Assembly: GCA_025612375.1 (NCBI GenBank)
Contig: JAAXKN010000038.1
Location: 1-39,083, forward strand
Direction of reading: 5' to 3'
Source of the DNA: Ignavibacteria bacterium
Lineage (GTDB): Bacteria > Bacteroidota > Ignavibacteria > Ignavibacteriales > SURF-24
DNA length: 39,083 nucleotides
Both the position numbers and the translations under genes were made by a program. Position 1 is the stretch's first letter; each line of letters opens with the position of its first letter. A model generated the notes under the pieces. It was not told where the DNA came from. It searched no databases and saw only the letters and a program-made list of their open reading frames with translations. Shown piece by piece: positions 902-11,766 of this stretch.

Positions 902-1903
902 TTAATAGATTATTTTTGTGGCATCATATAAATATTCTAAATTATGAAGGCACTGCAGTATAAAATCCTTAATGAACTTTAGCTGTTGGTCTTTGCCGCC
1001 TAGGCAAAGGAAGCTTTCCTGCCAGTTTTTAGGCATTATAACCAATTCATTTTTATCGGCTTTACAATGAAATTCTGATTCCGGGAATAATTTATTTTTA
1101 AGAATAGAATCCGCTGAAAGACTCCTGGCAGCTTTAAGATGCATGCTGTGGTGTCCATTCAGCCACAACATTAAGCCAAAAGGATTCCCTGATTCTGTTT
1201 CGACATTATAATTAATGCCAATCCAGGGCTGAAAATATTTATCATCTAAGCTATAAGTAAAATAGTAGCCAGATCCGTCTACAAAAAAGGTTCTGACACC
1301 GGAGGTTAGCTTAACCTTAAAGGTACCTTCATTTCCAATCTCCAACAATGCAGCTTTTATCATCCGATTCAGGTATATCAGATATTTAATTTCAAATTTT
1401 TCTATTTTCTGAATGTCTTCCATGTAGAATACTCCTTTTAAAAATTCTGCAAAACCTACAATTAAGTCGTTATCTGACTTTATAATATGGTCATGTAATT
1501 CTTTCCATGTAAAGTTAACCCATCCGGGATCAAGCAAATCTTTAACATTGCTAATTGTAAGAAGGCCAATATCTGCATTTCCCAAATCACTATAATTGCT
1601 GTGATAATTTTTGTCACCTACCTTTACTTCTAATATGAATACATGGTCGTTTAAAAACTCAAACCTCAGATCAGGTCTTCCGCTAATTTCCTTAGCATTA
1701 AACTCTCTCTCAACGTCGAGATAATTTTCAGAAGTAAGATAAGATAGGTCTTTGGGATTCCCTTTAGAACGTAAAAGATCAAAAAAGATCTTGCGAAAAT
1801 CCTCACTTACTTTTAATAGTGACCACATCATATCTGATAAGTCATTTTCTATCCAATGCCTTTCAGATAGCTTTTTGAAGAATTCTACTATTTCATTTCT
1901 CAT
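902..1903 (-). CDS. PD-(D/E)XK superfamily nuclease-like protein
   Basis: The product has 333 residues. The signature lies at residues 75-96: GRPDLRF, then a short hydrophobic strand, then FILEVKVG. This gives Pro77-Asp78, 13 residues, Glu92-Val-Lys94, the metal-binding and catalytic pattern of PD-(D/E)XK enzymes (restriction, repair and many defence nucleases); Glu65 or Glu67 could supply the helix acid. The N-terminal 60 residues look helical, and the C-terminal half (about 160-333) is unassigned and may bind DNA or a partner. No transmembrane segment or signal peptide is seen, so it should be cytoplasmic. The ATG has a strong Shine-Dalgarno (AGAGGTGAT). It lies 34 bp downstream of the DUF2971 gene on the same strand, so the two are probably one operon. 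The superfamily call is fairly safe; the exact family and a defence role are inference. Confidence 0.8.
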   Translation of the reverse strand: MRNEIVEFFKKLSERHWIENDLSDMMWSLLKVSEDFRKIFFDLLRSKGNPKDLSYLTSENYLDVEREFNAKEISGRPDLRFEFLNDHVFILEVKVGDKNYHSNYSDLGNADIGLLTISNVKDLLDPGWVNFTWKELHDHIIKSDNDLIVGFAEFLKGVFYMEDIQKIEKFEIKYLIYLNRMIKAALLEIGNEGTFKVKLTSGVRTFFVDGSGYYFTYSLDDKYFQPWIGINYNVETESGNPFGLMLWLNGHHSMHLKAARSLSADSILKNKLFPESEFHCKADKNELVIMPKNWQESFLCLGGKDQQLKFIKDFILQCLHNLEYLYDATKIIY

Positions 1904-3036: not shown

Positions 3037-3379
3037 TTATCTACGGATAAGATTCAGTATCTCAAGTATTTTGCTGTGGATTATATTCTGAAGCTCGAAA
3101 GGGTTATACTCCCTGTACTTTGCCTGCAATATTTTTTAGTCCTTGAAAGTGAATTATTACGGGGTCATTGTATCTTTTAGGCCTTCCTATGGGCTTATTC
3201 TTTTTCTTCTTACTCCTTACTGCAGTCTCTTTCCCATTAAGAAGCCTGATTGCATACTTTCTGTTGTAGCCGCACGTAGTACAGAACTCGTCTAAGATCT
3301 TCTGCTTTTCCAGCTTACCGGCCCTCTTGTATCTTGGCTTTATTTCCCTTAAATATTCTTCCTTTGCTTTCTGACTCAT
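3037..3379 (-). pseudogene. Transposase remnant with large internal deletion
   Basis: The first ~75 codons read as the N-terminal helix-turn-helix region of an integrase-core (DDE) transposase: MSQKAKEEYLREIKPRYKRA, then CGYNRKYAIRLLNG, then a Lys-rich stretch and GRPKRYNDPVI. The frame then drifts and stops at 3104. In the next frame the bases down to 3037 encode KYREYNPFELQNIIHSK, which resembles the C-terminal tail of the same transposase type. Head and tail are therefore joined with the catalytic core missing, so the gene cannot be active. The assignment to a DDE integrase-core family rests on recall of the N-terminal motif; the exact IS family is uncertain. Confidence 0.72.
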
Positions 3380-3696
3380 ATTGCACCCTTTATTTTACAG
3401 AGGTACTTTATACTATGAGTCAGTGCCTTATGTACCCGTAAAATCAGCCTGAAAACATAAAATTCAGGCAAATCTTTCGGTTACATTTCTTTTTGAGGCA
3501 ACGAATCATTTTTCAATACCCCAGGGTTACATTATTTATGAGTCAACTCTAGTTAACGCGATATTGAAAGAAAAAGTTGCGTCTGCTTAAGAAATGTTTT
3601 AATTTCAGATGCAACTAAAAGGCAGGCAGGTAATTAGATGTTTATTGTCAAATATTGATTTTTCATTCATTTTTATTAAGTAACAACAAATCTCAA

Positions 3697-4263
3697 ATGA
3701 ATACTGAAGAACTGGAATCAAAATTAGAGGCTAGAACTGAAAGTCAGACCTTGGATTTCAAAGCGGACTGTCCATGGGATGTAAACCAATATGCAAAACA
3801 TATTTTGGCCATGTCAAATTTGAAGGATGGAGGTTCCATTATAATAGGTGTTGAAAATGGAACATTTGAGCGGCAAGGTGTTTCGGTGGACAATCAAAAG
3901 ACATACAAAATTGATGAAATGAAAGATCAGATGACCCAGTTTGCTGATCCCCATGTAGATTTTTCAGTTGATTCTGTAAGAGATAATGTAGGTAAAGAAT
4001 ATATTATTATAAAAGTTTTTCCATTCAAAGAGATACCTGTTATTTGTAGAAAGGATTCAATAAGAGCGGATCTGAAAGCCGGAATAGTATACTATAGAAA
4101 CAGCAATAGAAGAGTTGAAAGTGCTCCTGTATCCAACTCTACGGACATGAGAGATATTATTGAGGTTGCCACAGTTAAAATGATGAGGAGGAAAACAGAA
4201 TTAGGCTTCACTGTCTCTCCTGAAGATAAAATAAAACTTGATGAGGAGTTGAATGGCTTATGA
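3697..4263 (+). CDS. Schlafen AlbA_2 domain protein
   Basis: The product is 188 residues from the ATG at 3697; an earlier in-frame TTG at 3655 adds 14 residues unlike the family and is less likely. [10 protein letters not shown] near residue 14 is the AlbA_2 opening motif, followed by [23 protein letters not shown] (read in two strands) and, later, [13 protein letters not shown], the family's closing strand. AlbA_2 domains bind nucleic acid or nucleotide and occur in regulators and in antiphage systems. Here the domain makes up nearly the whole protein, with a short helical tail. The stop overlaps the next ATG by 4 bp, so the partner is probably translated by coupling. No strong ribosome binding site precedes either start. 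A defence role is inference from context. Confidence 0.82.
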
Positions 4264-4970
4264 AAGAAGGATTATTGGAAAAGATAAAGTCAAGAGGTTA
4301 TTGGAGAATTAATTTTCAACCACTCAAAATTGATATCAAGTTTGATCTCCTTAAGGAATGCAAAGATATAGTTTTAAAAAATGCGGTTAATTTAAGGGGG
4401 TGGGATTATCCGCATGTTCCTCTTAGAAATGATGAGAATGGTGCAATACTAAAAAAAAATAATTTCGTAGAGGGATTTGAAGATTTCGGTAATCATAAGG
4501 AATTCTGGCGCATGTATCAAAGTGGGCAATTCCTATATTATCGTGGCCTGAGAGAAGATTGGTTTGATGAAGACCCTTGGAAAATAAGATATGTAAAAGA
4601 AATAAAACCAGGGAAATACTTAGGAATATTTATGTCTGTTATTTTTGAAATAACAGAAGCCTATCTTTTTTTATCACGCTTAACTCAATCAGGACTTTAC
4701 AGTAAGGGTGTCTTATTAAATGTTTCTTTACGTAATACGGAGAAAAGAGAACTTTGGACTGAATATAAGGGAATGCCTTTTGTAGAACCAAGATTTACGG
4801 GTGCTAAGGATCTTAACTTTTCTGTGCAGTATACAAAAGATGAAGTAATTTCAAATCCAAAAGAATTAGCAGCAAAACTTATCGAGCAGATATTTGATAG
4901 ATTTGGATGGAATCCAGATCCAGGATTAATAAAACAAAGTCAAGAAGAACTTCTTTCAGGAAAAATATAG
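4260..4970 (+). CDS. Unrecognised partner of the AlbA_2 protein
   Basis: The 236-residue product starts inside the stop of the AlbA_2 gene (ATGA overlap), with a GAGGAG site 11 bases upstream. It has no signal peptide and no clear membrane helix. Notable features are [12 protein letters not shown] near the start, a tryptophan-rich block ([31 protein letters not shown]), a central helix [16 protein letters not shown], and a C-terminal helix [15 protein letters not shown] do not recognise a Pfam family. I have a general impression that proteins with RGWDxPH and a YYRG motif accompany AlbA_2-type genes, which would make this a conserved two-component unit, but this has not been searched. Codon and base use match the AT-rich island rather than the genes after 6 kb. 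Confidence 0.8.
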
Positions 4971-7727: not shown

Positions 7728-8456
7728 ATGAAAGGCTATATCAAACTCCCAAGGGAACTGACCCGGGATGAAATGTATTACCGCTCCCCTTTTGAACGCC
7801 CGAGGGCACTGCTGGACATCATCCTTCTGGCTACCTATAAGGAAAGAACTTTAAGAAAAGGAAATGCTGAAATTAAAATTGAACCGGGTGAAGTCGCTTA
7901 CTCCACTGTCGCCCTGTCCAAAAGATGGAAACGCAGCAGGAATTTTGTCCTTAAAGTACTTAAAGAGTTTGCTTCGATGGGACTTATTGAGGTAAAGACA
8001 AACCCCTATACAACAATCATTAAAATTAAAAACTGGGAACAGTACCGGAATAATCCTGATTGTAACGGGCAGGATGAAAAGGAAGTCCCGCTCAGGCAGA
8101 ATGAAAACATAAAGCCGCCTGAGGAATTAAATCAAAATACCGCTGCAGCTTCAGATCCTGAGGCGCGGGGACTTGCCGCTTTCCTTCTTTCTGAAATCAG
8201 GAAAAACGATCCTTACATCGTAATACAGGATACGGCAGAGTGGGACCTTGAAATAAGCAGAATATTAAATGAATTCGGAATTCCACCTGTGGAACTAAGG
8301 CGTGTTATTGAACTGTCGCAATCACATCCTTTCTGGAAAAAACACGTCGTCTCCCCTTCCACACTCAGGCTGCACTTTCACGCGCTTTTTATAGAGATGA
8401 AAGAAAAAACTAAAAAACAAATCCCTGAAGAATGGAGGCTTTGCTATGAAAGATAA
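7728..8456 (+). CDS. Phage/plasmid-type replication initiator-like winged-helix protein
   Basis: The 242-residue product matches the layout of phage replisome-organiser proteins. MKGYIKLPRELTRDEMYY at the start, LLATYKERTL, a Gly-Glu turn (IEPGEVAYSTVALSKRWKR) and SRNFVLKVLKEFASMGLIEV form a winged helix-turn-helix over residues ~1-110, closing with IKNWEQYRNN. A charged linker follows, then a C-terminal helical domain (~145-240) with SQSHPFWKKHVVSPSTLRLH, like the helicase-loading or DNA-binding tail of DnaD/replication-protein-O types. GGAGG sits at good spacing before the ATG. The gene overlaps the helicase gene by 11 bp, so the pair probably acts together: origin recognition and helicase loading. 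The N-terminal half is paralogous to the 107-residue protein at 9846. No phage structural genes are nearby. Confidence 0.78.
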   Translation: MKGYIKLPRELTRDEMYYRSPFERPRALLDIILLATYKERTLRKGNAEIKIEPGEVAYSTVALSKRWKRSRNFVLKVLKEFASMGLIEVKTNPYTTIIKIKNWEQYRNNPDCNGQDEKEVPLRQNENIKPPEELNQNTAAASDPEARGLAAFLLSEIRKNDPYIVIQDTAEWDLEISRILNEFGIPPVELRRVIELSQSHPFWKKHVVSPSTLRLHFHALFIEMKEKTKKQIPEEWRLCYER

Positions 8457-9801
8457 TTCAAATCTCAAACTGGAGTATTCGGCCCTTCACTCAATGCTTA
8501 TAAGCGAGCAGGGCTTCCTTAGCGCCGCGGCGGTTAATCCCCCGGCTGAAATATTTTCATGCATGGAAAACAGAATAATCTATTCGGAAGCGATGAACTA
8601 TTTCTATTCCACAGGCCGCGCACCGGGACTAAGAACTCTTCACGAGAAGCTGATACTGGAAGGCAAACCTGAAAACCTCAGGGCGCACCTCCGCGAAAGA
8701 ATTGGCGACGCGGAGTTTATGCGTAATACCGGGGATGCGATAAAACTTCTTACAGAAATTAAAATTGAACGGGAGATCAGGGAGTATTTCGCTTCCACCA
8801 GGGAAACAGGCCTCGATTTTGCGATGGATATTATATCATTTATAAATGAAACTTTTAAGGAATATATCGGCGGCTGCGTCAGGGAAAGGAAAAATAGTAA
8901 TGTGGCCGAAACCGTGCTTAAGGAAATCCAGGACGCCGTGGAAGGTAAGTCTAGCCAGTATATCCGTACCTTAATACCGGAACTTGACCGCCAGGTAATT
9001 GGAATTCCTAAAAACCACCTGACTGTAATTGCGGCCAGAACAGGCATGGGAAAAACCGATTTCATGCTTCAGCTTATGAGGAATTTTATGAAGCAGGGCT
9101 TGAAGCCGGCCGTGTTCAGCCTTGAAATGGAATCGGAAAGCCTCTTTATGAGAAATATTTCCGAGGCGGCACGGATCGATTCAATGCGGATTGAAAACGG
9201 AGAACTGAACCAGGGGGAAATGGAAATGCTGTCCGAGGCTTCTAAAAAATATTCGGGCGACGACTATTTAATTGACGACGGCGCGGCTGAAACCCCGGAA
9301 ACTATTAAGGCAAAAATCAATTACTGGCGCCTGAAACATAATGTGAATGTGATTATGGTCGATTACATAACGCTTATTGATACTTCCTACCATAAGGAAC
9401 GCTACGACCTGGAGATCGGCGCCCTTATGCGCGAAATGAGGGTGTTCGCTAAGGATACGGGAATTCCTATTATTCTCATCAGCCAGCTCAACCGCGATTC
9501 TGAAAAACGGCAGGACCACAGGCCCCAGATATCGGATCTCAAAGAATCCAGCTCAATTGAACAGGAAGCAAAGCTTGTTATGATGCTCTACCGCCCCAAA
9601 AAGTACGGCATCGATCCTTTCGAGGGGAAGGAGTATACCTTTTATGATATGTTCGGCAACCAGATTAAGGCCGATGAGTATATGGAAATAATAGTAAATA
9701 AGGCGCGAAACGGCAGGACGGGCATTGTACCCGTTCAGTACATCCCGGCAATGCACCGCATTGAAGGAGTAAAGTGCATAAAGTCAAAGCTGGTGTCATA
9801 G
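8446..9801 (+). CDS. DnaB-type replicative helicase (accessory copy)
   Basis: The 451-residue product has a short N-terminal helical domain (~1-140), a linker, and a RecA-like SF4 helicase core. Walker A is ARTGMGKT at 197-204, followed by VFSLEME (223-229), Walker B IMVDYITLI with Asp306, ISQLNR (345-350), SDLKESSSIEQEA (363-375), and an NKARNGRTG segment with the arginine-finger region at 418-426. All motifs expected of DnaB are present, so ATP-driven 5'-3' unwinding is likely. The length is close to chromosomal DnaB, but the neighbours make this an accessory phage- or plasmid-derived copy. The ATG is preceded by GGAGG inside the upstream gene. It lies 44 bp before the second winged-helix gene. 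Confidence 0.9.
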   Translation: MKDNSNLKLEYSALHSMLISEQGFLSAAAVNPPAEIFSCMENRIIYSEAMNYFYSTGRAPGLRTLHEKLILEGKPENLRAHLRERIGDAEFMRNTGDAIKLLTEIKIEREIREYFASTRETGLDFAMDIISFINETFKEYIGGCVRERKNSNVAETVLKEIQDAVEGKSSQYIRTLIPELDRQVIGIPKNHLTVIAARTGMGKTDFMLQLMRNFMKQGLKPAVFSLEMESESLFMRNISEAARIDSMRIENGELNQGEMEMLSEASKKYSGDDYLIDDGAAETPETIKAKINYWRLKHNVNVIMVDYITLIDTSYHKERYDLEIGALMREMRVFAKDTGIPIILISQLNRDSEKRQDHRPQISDLKESSSIEQEAKLVMMLYRPKKYGIDPFEGKEYTFYDMFGNQIKADEYMEIIVNKARNGRTGIVPVQYIPAMHRIEGVKCIKSKLVS

Positions 9802-10741: not shown

Positions 10742-10824
10742 TTATTGGATCTCAATTGATTTGGAAATCGAATCCGTATATCTTTGAAGCATTGAATCAA
10801 AAAGCAAAAGAAAGGATTGTTGCT

Positions 10825-11766
10825 ATGGAAGCTAAGATGATCGGCAGCAAAATTGCCGAAGCCAGAAAGAAAATAAATATGTCACAGGCCGAGCTCGCCA
10901 AACAAATGTTCATTAGTCCGCAGGCGGTCGGCAAATGGGAGCGCGGAGAGTCAATCCCAAATATCATTACTTTTAACCGCCTGGCTGAAATTCTGGGCGT
11001 TGACCTTAATTATTTTTCAGAGAACCCGCAGCCGGCCGGCAGTGAAAAGGCTTCTGATACAACCGGTGCCGGCAGCCGGGAACAAACACCACCATTGGCT
11101 GAGGATTCCTCCCGCCCGGAAGAGCGGCAGGCGCGAATAAGACTCACCGCCGCCAACCTGCAGCAGAGCGATTTTGCGGGCGTCACTCTGCATAAAGGGA
11201 AATTCAAGGCAAGCGCATTGCATGGGGCTGATTTTAGCGGCGCCGACCTTACAGGCAGTTCCTTCGAGTCCAGTGACGCCGGTGAAGCTAACTTTAACAG
11301 GGCGAACCTGACGGACTGCAGCTTTTCGGCTATCGACCTTTCGGGTGCGGACTTCAATAAAACTATTCTTGTACGCACCGAATTCAATAAAGCGGCGATG
11401 ACACGCGCAAAGTTCACCGATGTGAAAATGAAAGACGTGAAGATCACGGTATCCGACCTGAGTGAAGCGGTTTTTGAAAACTGCACCTTTAACGGCGTGG
11501 ATTTTAAGCATTCCGACCTGCGGGGACTGAATTTCGAAGGGCAGACCTTTATTGACGTCAGGTTCGACAAGTCGGCACTGACCGATGTTTCCTTCAAAGG
11601 CGCCACATTCAGGAATGTATCGTTTACACTCCCTTTTTCCGTGACTAACAAATCTTACCTTGCCATGAAGACTGTCTGCTTCGATGGCGCGACGATGGAT
11701 AAGCTTACTTATTTGGCGCTTAAAGGCTTGTGGGTAATAGACCTCTCGAAGGTAACGGTTGTTTGA
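10825..11766 (+). CDS. XRE-type regulator fused to pentapeptide repeats
   Basis: The product has 313 residues from the ATG at 10825, which has AAAGGA at good spacing; an upstream TTG frame at 10756 is rejected. Residues ~8-65 are a Cro/C1-type helix-turn-helix (IAEARKKINMSQAELAKQMF, then SPQAVGKWERGESIPN). A Pro/Ser-rich linker follows, then about 170 residues of pentapeptide repeats with the A(D/N)(L/F)xx pattern (ADFSGADLTGSSFESS, ANFNRANLTDCSFS, ADFNKT), which fold as a right-handed beta-helix, and a short C-terminal cap. It probably represses or senses for the ABC exporter encoded 58 bp downstream. The repeats might bind a ligand or partner. Regulation of the exporter is inferred from gene order and the operator-like site upstream. 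Confidence 0.88.
   Translation: MEAKMIGSKIAEARKKINMSQAELAKQMFISPQAVGKWERGESIPNIITFNRLAEILGVDLNYFSENPQPAGSEKASDTTGAGSREQTPPLAEDSSRPEERQARIRLTAANLQQSDFAGVTLHKGKFKASALHGADFSGADLTGSSFESSDAGEANFNRANLTDCSFSAIDLSGADFNKTILVRTEFNKAAMTRAKFTDVKMKDVKITVSDLSEAVFENCTFNGVDFKHSDLRGLNFEGQTFIDVRFDKSALTDVSFKGATFRNVSFTLPFSVTNKSYLAMKTVCFDGATMDKLTYLALKGLWVIDLSKVTVV

Follow-up and report, generated by a model that had tools for sequence, protein, structure and literature searches.

The two overlapping genes at positions 3697-4970 of the DNA analysed here (a stretch of 39,083 nucleotides from an Ignavibacteria contig, JAAXKN010000038.1, referred to as the window) encode a small Schlafen-like AlbA_2 protein and a partner that we term X. 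We give about even chances to the reading that this pair is a mobile AlbA_2-X device in its two-gene form, of the defence or toxin-antitoxin-like kind, and that its Schlafen-like RNase is restrained or triggered by X. Our confidence falls a little short of that for the broader proposal that X is a new hyperpromiscuous sensing and control domain of prokaryotic immunity, which responds to a ligand or a phage and is exchanged among four or more unrelated toxins (Schlafen RNase, HipA kinase, RelA/SpoT alarmone synthetase and TIR), either fused to them or encoded by a coupled separate gene. The pair is a variant of known toxin- or effector-plus-control devices; what raises its interest above that of the first description is that the partner appears to be a shared module.

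A coupled gene pair and its fused relatives

The AlbA_2 gene lies at 3697-4263 (+, 188 aa) and the X gene at 4260-4970 (+, 236 aa). The two reading frames share the stop/start ATGA at 4260-4263 (+), as can be read from the sequence and as the original prediction had described. A TTG at 3655 would allow a longer AlbA_2 reading frame; since the N-termini of the homologues line up with ATG 3697, we take the latter as the start. Two small coupled genes are what is expected of a type II toxin-antitoxin system, and the overlap is conserved. Each of the six nearest split relatives has it, as ATGA in five (L018, L020, L021, L023 and L056) and as GTGA (GTGA/TGATG) in L022, so that the objection named beforehand, an overlap absent from homologues, does not apply to close ones. 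Distant split forms have a looser junction, with a 2-bp gap in L057, an 8-bp overlap in L058 and a short gap in L061. The fixed stoichiometry that had been read from the overlap holds as 1:1 in the fused relatives, because there AlbA_2 and X form one chain; for the split pair, which shows a conserved coupled junction, it may be presumed.

The family is not reached easily. As a single query, the window protein gave no match in 96 near relatives, phage records and viral contigs, and only sub-threshold matches in 395 genomes of its phylum. A distant Deinococcus fusion, used as intermediate query, opened the family. A Rhizobium plasmid carries both genes with identities of 46% (AlbA_2) and 37% (X), and further copies came to light when species genomes were scanned, in a small-genome MAG (54% in X), Agrobacterium, Martelella and Rhizobium sp. 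LC145. The latter copy matches the viral contig L020, in which the pair lies near a phage integrase. A search of the phylum of the MAG, whose genomes are mostly 0.5-2 Mb, yielded L056, L057, L058 and L061. The two-gene unit thus recurs in other phyla at identities of 45-67% for AlbA_2 and 36-54% for X, and dN/dS values of 0.09-0.17 for both genes, from a comparison of close rhizobial copies, indicate purifying selection. Together with the overlap kept in 6/6 relatives, this argues that the pairing is not due to chance.

In the Deinococcus plasmid pDrdVI (L019) AlbA_2 and X form a single protein of 465 residues. Further AlbA_2-X fusions are found in Pseudonocardia (L025), on haloarchaeal plasmids (L026), in Burkholderia (L028) and, frameshifted, in Sinorhizobium (L030), and also on the phage-like contigs L032, L034, L051 and L054, in other alphaproteobacteria (L042, L045), in an actinobacterial-class genome (L055) and in small genomes (L060, L064). 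The X HMM finds each of these fusions at E <1e-29 (L030 left out). With family membership defined as X placed C-terminal to, or directly after, AlbA_2, the window pair belongs to the same family. The AlbA_2 and X trees contain the same six-member clade (support 99/98 and 96/98), and the two distance matrices correlate with r 0.92, a value reached in 0 of 5000 permutations, which reports co-inheritance and not binding. AlbA_2 and X act together, as co-inheritance, fusion and coupled reading frames show.

The partner X and the effectors it accompanies

X was originally described as unrecognised, and indeed it has no match in Pfam, NCBIfam, PADLOC, PHROG or the PDB sequences. The other objection named beforehand, a match to a known housekeeping family, does not apply either. 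A literature search found no description of it either. Judged by its homologues and fusions, X is not an orphan; it is an unnamed family of about 240 residues that serves as C-terminal module in every fusion found. The two Trp-rich motifs pointed out at the outset are located in X. The first, ten residues long (4392-4421, +), holds a GW that is invariant in the family, and the second is YYRGLREDW (4536-4562, +), with a nearly invariant D100. Between them lies HKEFW (4494-4508, +), with H79 and W83 invariant or nearly so. The GW and ED cores and the intervening H-x-(E/D)-(F/Y)-W belong to the best-conserved positions in the family. A PHROG family of unknown function, phrog_38563 (464 aa), covers the AlbA_2 part of L034 (9.2e-36) and the X part of L040 (1.5e-13), and hence is the fused AlbA_2-X protein; it was never named, and it does not reach the window X at E 0.001.

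The X sequence profile gave no match in the PDB up to E 10, and the model of the window X (six-row alignment, pLDDT 69.8, pTM 0.74) gave no Foldseek match at E 0.001. The best match of this model, VIA with Z 4.8, is not trusted. In the L034 model, whose relative placement of the two domains is not to be trusted (pTM 0.57), X resembles AdoMet decarboxylase (Z 6.1, 127 residues, 3.8 A), a fold that is not listed for the window X model; a Z of about 6 is below the level where it means kinship, and we keep this as a lead only. Hints of GluQRS and NucT were far below the cut-off and were dropped.

X swaps partners. In Azospirillum, Sphingobium, Ensifer, the pSymA plasmid of S. meliloti and several alphaproteobacterial genomes, X is joined to a Cro/C1-type HTH, and the HTH-X gene directly follows a HipA kinase gene. 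In L031 and L040 the two genes again share ATGA, and in others they overlap by 25-34 bases. The HTH-X proteins form one clade (97/94). In the model symbiosis plasmid pSymA of S. meliloti 1021 (L065:2565-4744), the record has no annotation at the place where the HipA-like gene and HTH-X lie; this copy would be convenient for laboratory work. Two single-chain proteins from small genomes extend the range, namely a RelA_SpoT-X protein (L062:673-2112; Pfam RelA_SpoT 5.5e-12, X 9e-25) and a LexA-type HTH followed by TIR and X (L063:709-2094; TIR_2 8.4e-22, X 2.5e-14). Both may be new effectors, of the alarmone and the NADase kind, that are governed by this one control domain.

The recurrence of X with four unrelated effector kinds suggests that it carries a shared function and not the effector function itself. 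The original prediction had left open whether the partner is a new effector or a sensor. X occurs outside this pair too, with HipA kinases, a RelA/SpoT synthetase and a TIR protein, which favours a sensor or control module over a new effector. In plasmids, prophages and defence regions it is joined to toxins or effectors of four or more unrelated kinds, or encoded next to them, so that it looks like a shared control and sensing module of bacterial immunity. A comparable principle is that of Panacea, a hyperpromiscuous antitoxin domain in which one control domain is joined to many unrelated toxins. The likeness of X to Panacea-type domains is one of description; a difference is that X in many cases lies C-terminally in one chain with its effector.

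Known systems also exist for the HTH-X arrangement. In reversed-order HipBA modules (hipAB, hipEB) and with HipR/Stl antitoxins, an HTH protein adjoins a HipA kinase, as in the HTH-X relatives. The reversed hipAB order is known, antitoxin sensing has been proposed for HipR, and the nearest published idea to the role of X is that of Stl-like sensing antitoxins for HipF/HipG (PMC8262856). The window pair itself differs from HipBA-type modules, as no HipA match was found among its neighbours; a HipA gene in the operon is confined to the HTH-X relatives.

We infer the following sequence of events. AlbA_2 would be the effector, a Schlafen-type domain acting on tRNA or other RNA, and X a control and sensing module bound to it, as natural fusions and co-inheritance indirectly suggest. 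X would hold the effector quiet, or arm it, until it is altered by a trigger, for example a stress ligand or a component of a phage. At that point the effector would stop translation and the infection would abort. In the same manner, HTH-X after HipA would be a repressor or antitoxin that senses through X, and in RelA_SpoT-X and TIR-X the same device would be contained in a single chain. If one unnamed domain indeed accompanies Schlafen, HipA, RelA/SpoT and TIR effectors, it would be a common switch, and finding what X binds would bear on all four effector kinds. X would also provide a sequence handle for new defence modules in plasmids and prophages.

The foremost alternative is a plain type II toxin-antitoxin system, with AlbA_2 as toxin and X as antitoxin only, which maintains mobile elements without sensing. 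Although a pair of short, overlapping genes carried by plasmids, prophages and islands fits this type, and HTH-X adjoins HipA kinases just as HipB would, in the reversed order that is known for hipAB, we regard it as unlikely. Dedicated antitoxins are as a rule tied to a single toxin family, whereas X goes with four unrelated effector kinds, and many AlbA_2-X copies are single-chain fusions. Moreover, X is frameshifted and AlbA_2 open in two records, L018:4885-5585 (Rhizobium beringeri) and L030:5111-6453 (Sinorhizobium sp. B11). For L018 we rejected a programmed frameshift at the A-AAA-AAG run, because in intact relatives this stretch is one base longer; an ordinary one-base loss or a sequencing error explains the break. 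If the break in L018 is real, it speaks mildly against a mere antitoxin and mildly favours an X that arms the effector, since a free toxin without its antitoxin is expected to kill; otherwise it is a record error.

Schlafen likeness of the AlbA_2 protein

The first protein had been described as almost only an AlbA_2 domain, and Pfam bears this out, assigning SLFN_AlbA_2 alone to residues 15-138 of 188. The match to PF04326 reaches 55.8 bits against a gathering score of 25.3 (8.2e-15). A profile of 14 AlbA_2 homologues finds solved Schlafen structures in the PDB, with CbCash (9ylu) at 4.5e-10, SLFN11 at 2.3e-8 and rat Slfn13 (5yd0) at 9.4e-8. The predicted fold of the fused relative L034 resembles the bacterial 3lmm (Z 11.7, 141 residues, 3.2 A), the SAMD9 tRNase domain 9o0d (Z 9.6, 172 residues, 4.7 A; SAMD9 range Z 9.6-10.5) and SLFN14 (Z 8.4, 115 residues, 3.1 A; Slfn13/14 range Z 8.2-8.4).

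Slfn13 cuts tRNA with E205, E210 and D248 as catalytic residues (PMC5862951). According to the alignment to 5yd0, the motif E15-SQTL-D20-F-K22 (3739-3762, +) is equivalent to E205...E210-x-K of the Schlafens, so that the first two acids have counterparts in E15 and D20 of the window protein. Among 22 AlbA_2 homologues E15 and K22 are invariant and position 20 is always D or E. In the same alignment D248 falls on N54, with E53 adjacent (E53-N54, 3853-3858, +), at or beside the third catalytic acid; D or E occupies this site in most homologues, and the site is variable in the family. The domain probably acts on tRNA or other RNA, by cleavage or by binding. RNase activity seems likely for the family, given the match of the first two acids, and uncertain for the window copy, which may bind rather than cut, because D248 is replaced by N54 and the third acid is not strictly kept.

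Compared with the Schlafen and SAMD9 tRNase domains, including bacterial Schlafens, the window protein has in common the AlbA_2 fold, the E-x4-(D/E)-x-K motif and a GG...G strand; RNA cleavage on the side of the known systems comes from Slfn13 and SAMD9. It differs in its minimal size of 188 aa, in N54 at the third acid and in the lack of an ATPase or helicase part, and the partner X is not seen in Schlafens. The PADLOC candidate PDC-S50 matches AlbA_2 residues 3-151 (2.4e-7) over profile positions 6-156 of 387, hence its N-terminal 156 positions only, and X has no match to it. In a preprint cited in PMC12839542, bacterial Schlafens are proposed as anti-phage RNases. The suggestion that the pair takes part in an antiphage or nucleic-acid-targeting system is consistent with the Schlafen homology and with the defence neighbourhoods described below, and the AlbA_2-X arrangement may bear on how small AlbA_2 proteins are controlled.

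A further alternative starts from N54, which stands where the third catalytic acid would be expected. AlbA_2 could bind DNA or RNA without cutting, and X could sense a ligand, so that the pair regulates how defence or mobile-element genes in its vicinity are transcribed. Annotations frequently call AlbA_2 proteins DNA-binding, and X is also joined to HTH and LexA-type DNA-binding domains. We consider this distinctly improbable, as E15, D20 and K22 are kept, the partner in TIR-X and RelA_SpoT-X is an enzyme and not a regulator, and the modelled fold has its nearest counterparts in the domains of bacterial AlbA_2, SAMD9 tRNase and Schlafen proteins.

Genomic setting and distribution

AlbA_2-X genes are found on plasmids, prophages and islands and in the company of defence genes; the neighbours were tallied by eye and are observations, not a controlled enrichment. 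A type III-like restriction-modification (RM) pair adjoins AlbA_2-X in L021 and L054, and other RM genes do so in pDrdVI (L019), L057 (DNA methylase) and L058 (HsdS). CBASS-type genes (nucleotidyltransferase, ThiF, SAVED) lie beside it in L068, a TIR gene in L051, and PRTase-CE, NADAR- and DUF2971-like genes in L034; in L032 the neighbour is an FRG-like PDC-S15 gene that adjoins phage portal- and terminase-like genes. That AlbA_2-X is an RM accessory, such as a reserve effector that acts once restriction has failed, would suit these RM neighbours, and Schlafen RNases are described as back-up effectors in BREX loci (PMC12839542); we hold it to be very improbable, since most copies, that of the window included, have no adjacent RM gene.

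X is rare. It was found in 9/385 genomes of the Agrobacterium class, 2/296 of the Pseudonocardia class and 9/380 of the phylum of the MAG. Within the phylum of the window it occurs in this genome only (1/375), and the pair was therefore probably acquired horizontally. An empty site was sought in relatives via the SNase-like neighbour, and no orthologous locus was found. Upstream of the pair lies an N-terminal remnant of an ISNCY-like transposase (3104-3379, -; tblastn 34% over 87 aa, E 2e-6), which is a single copy in the genome.

In L051, L052 and L054, both AlbA_2-X and HipA/HTH-X genes adjoin serine-recombinase-like genes, as if they occupied the same kind of cargo site. The upstream neighbour of the window pair is a DUF2971 gene (1938-2846, -) that matches the PADLOC candidate PDC-S31 (1.6e-40); a DUF2971-like gene is thus near both the window pair and the L034 fusion. 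At 902-1903 (-) the window encodes a 333-aa protein without family match, which may be a PD-(D/E)XK-like nuclease to judge by an E-x-K stretch, ILEVKVGDKN. The segment 7728-10169 (+) encodes a DnaB-type helicase (8446-9801) surrounded by phage-like replisome-organiser proteins, perhaps what is left of an integrated element. Finally, at 10756-11766 (+) a Cro/C1 HTH is fused to pentapeptide repeats, an unusual combination.
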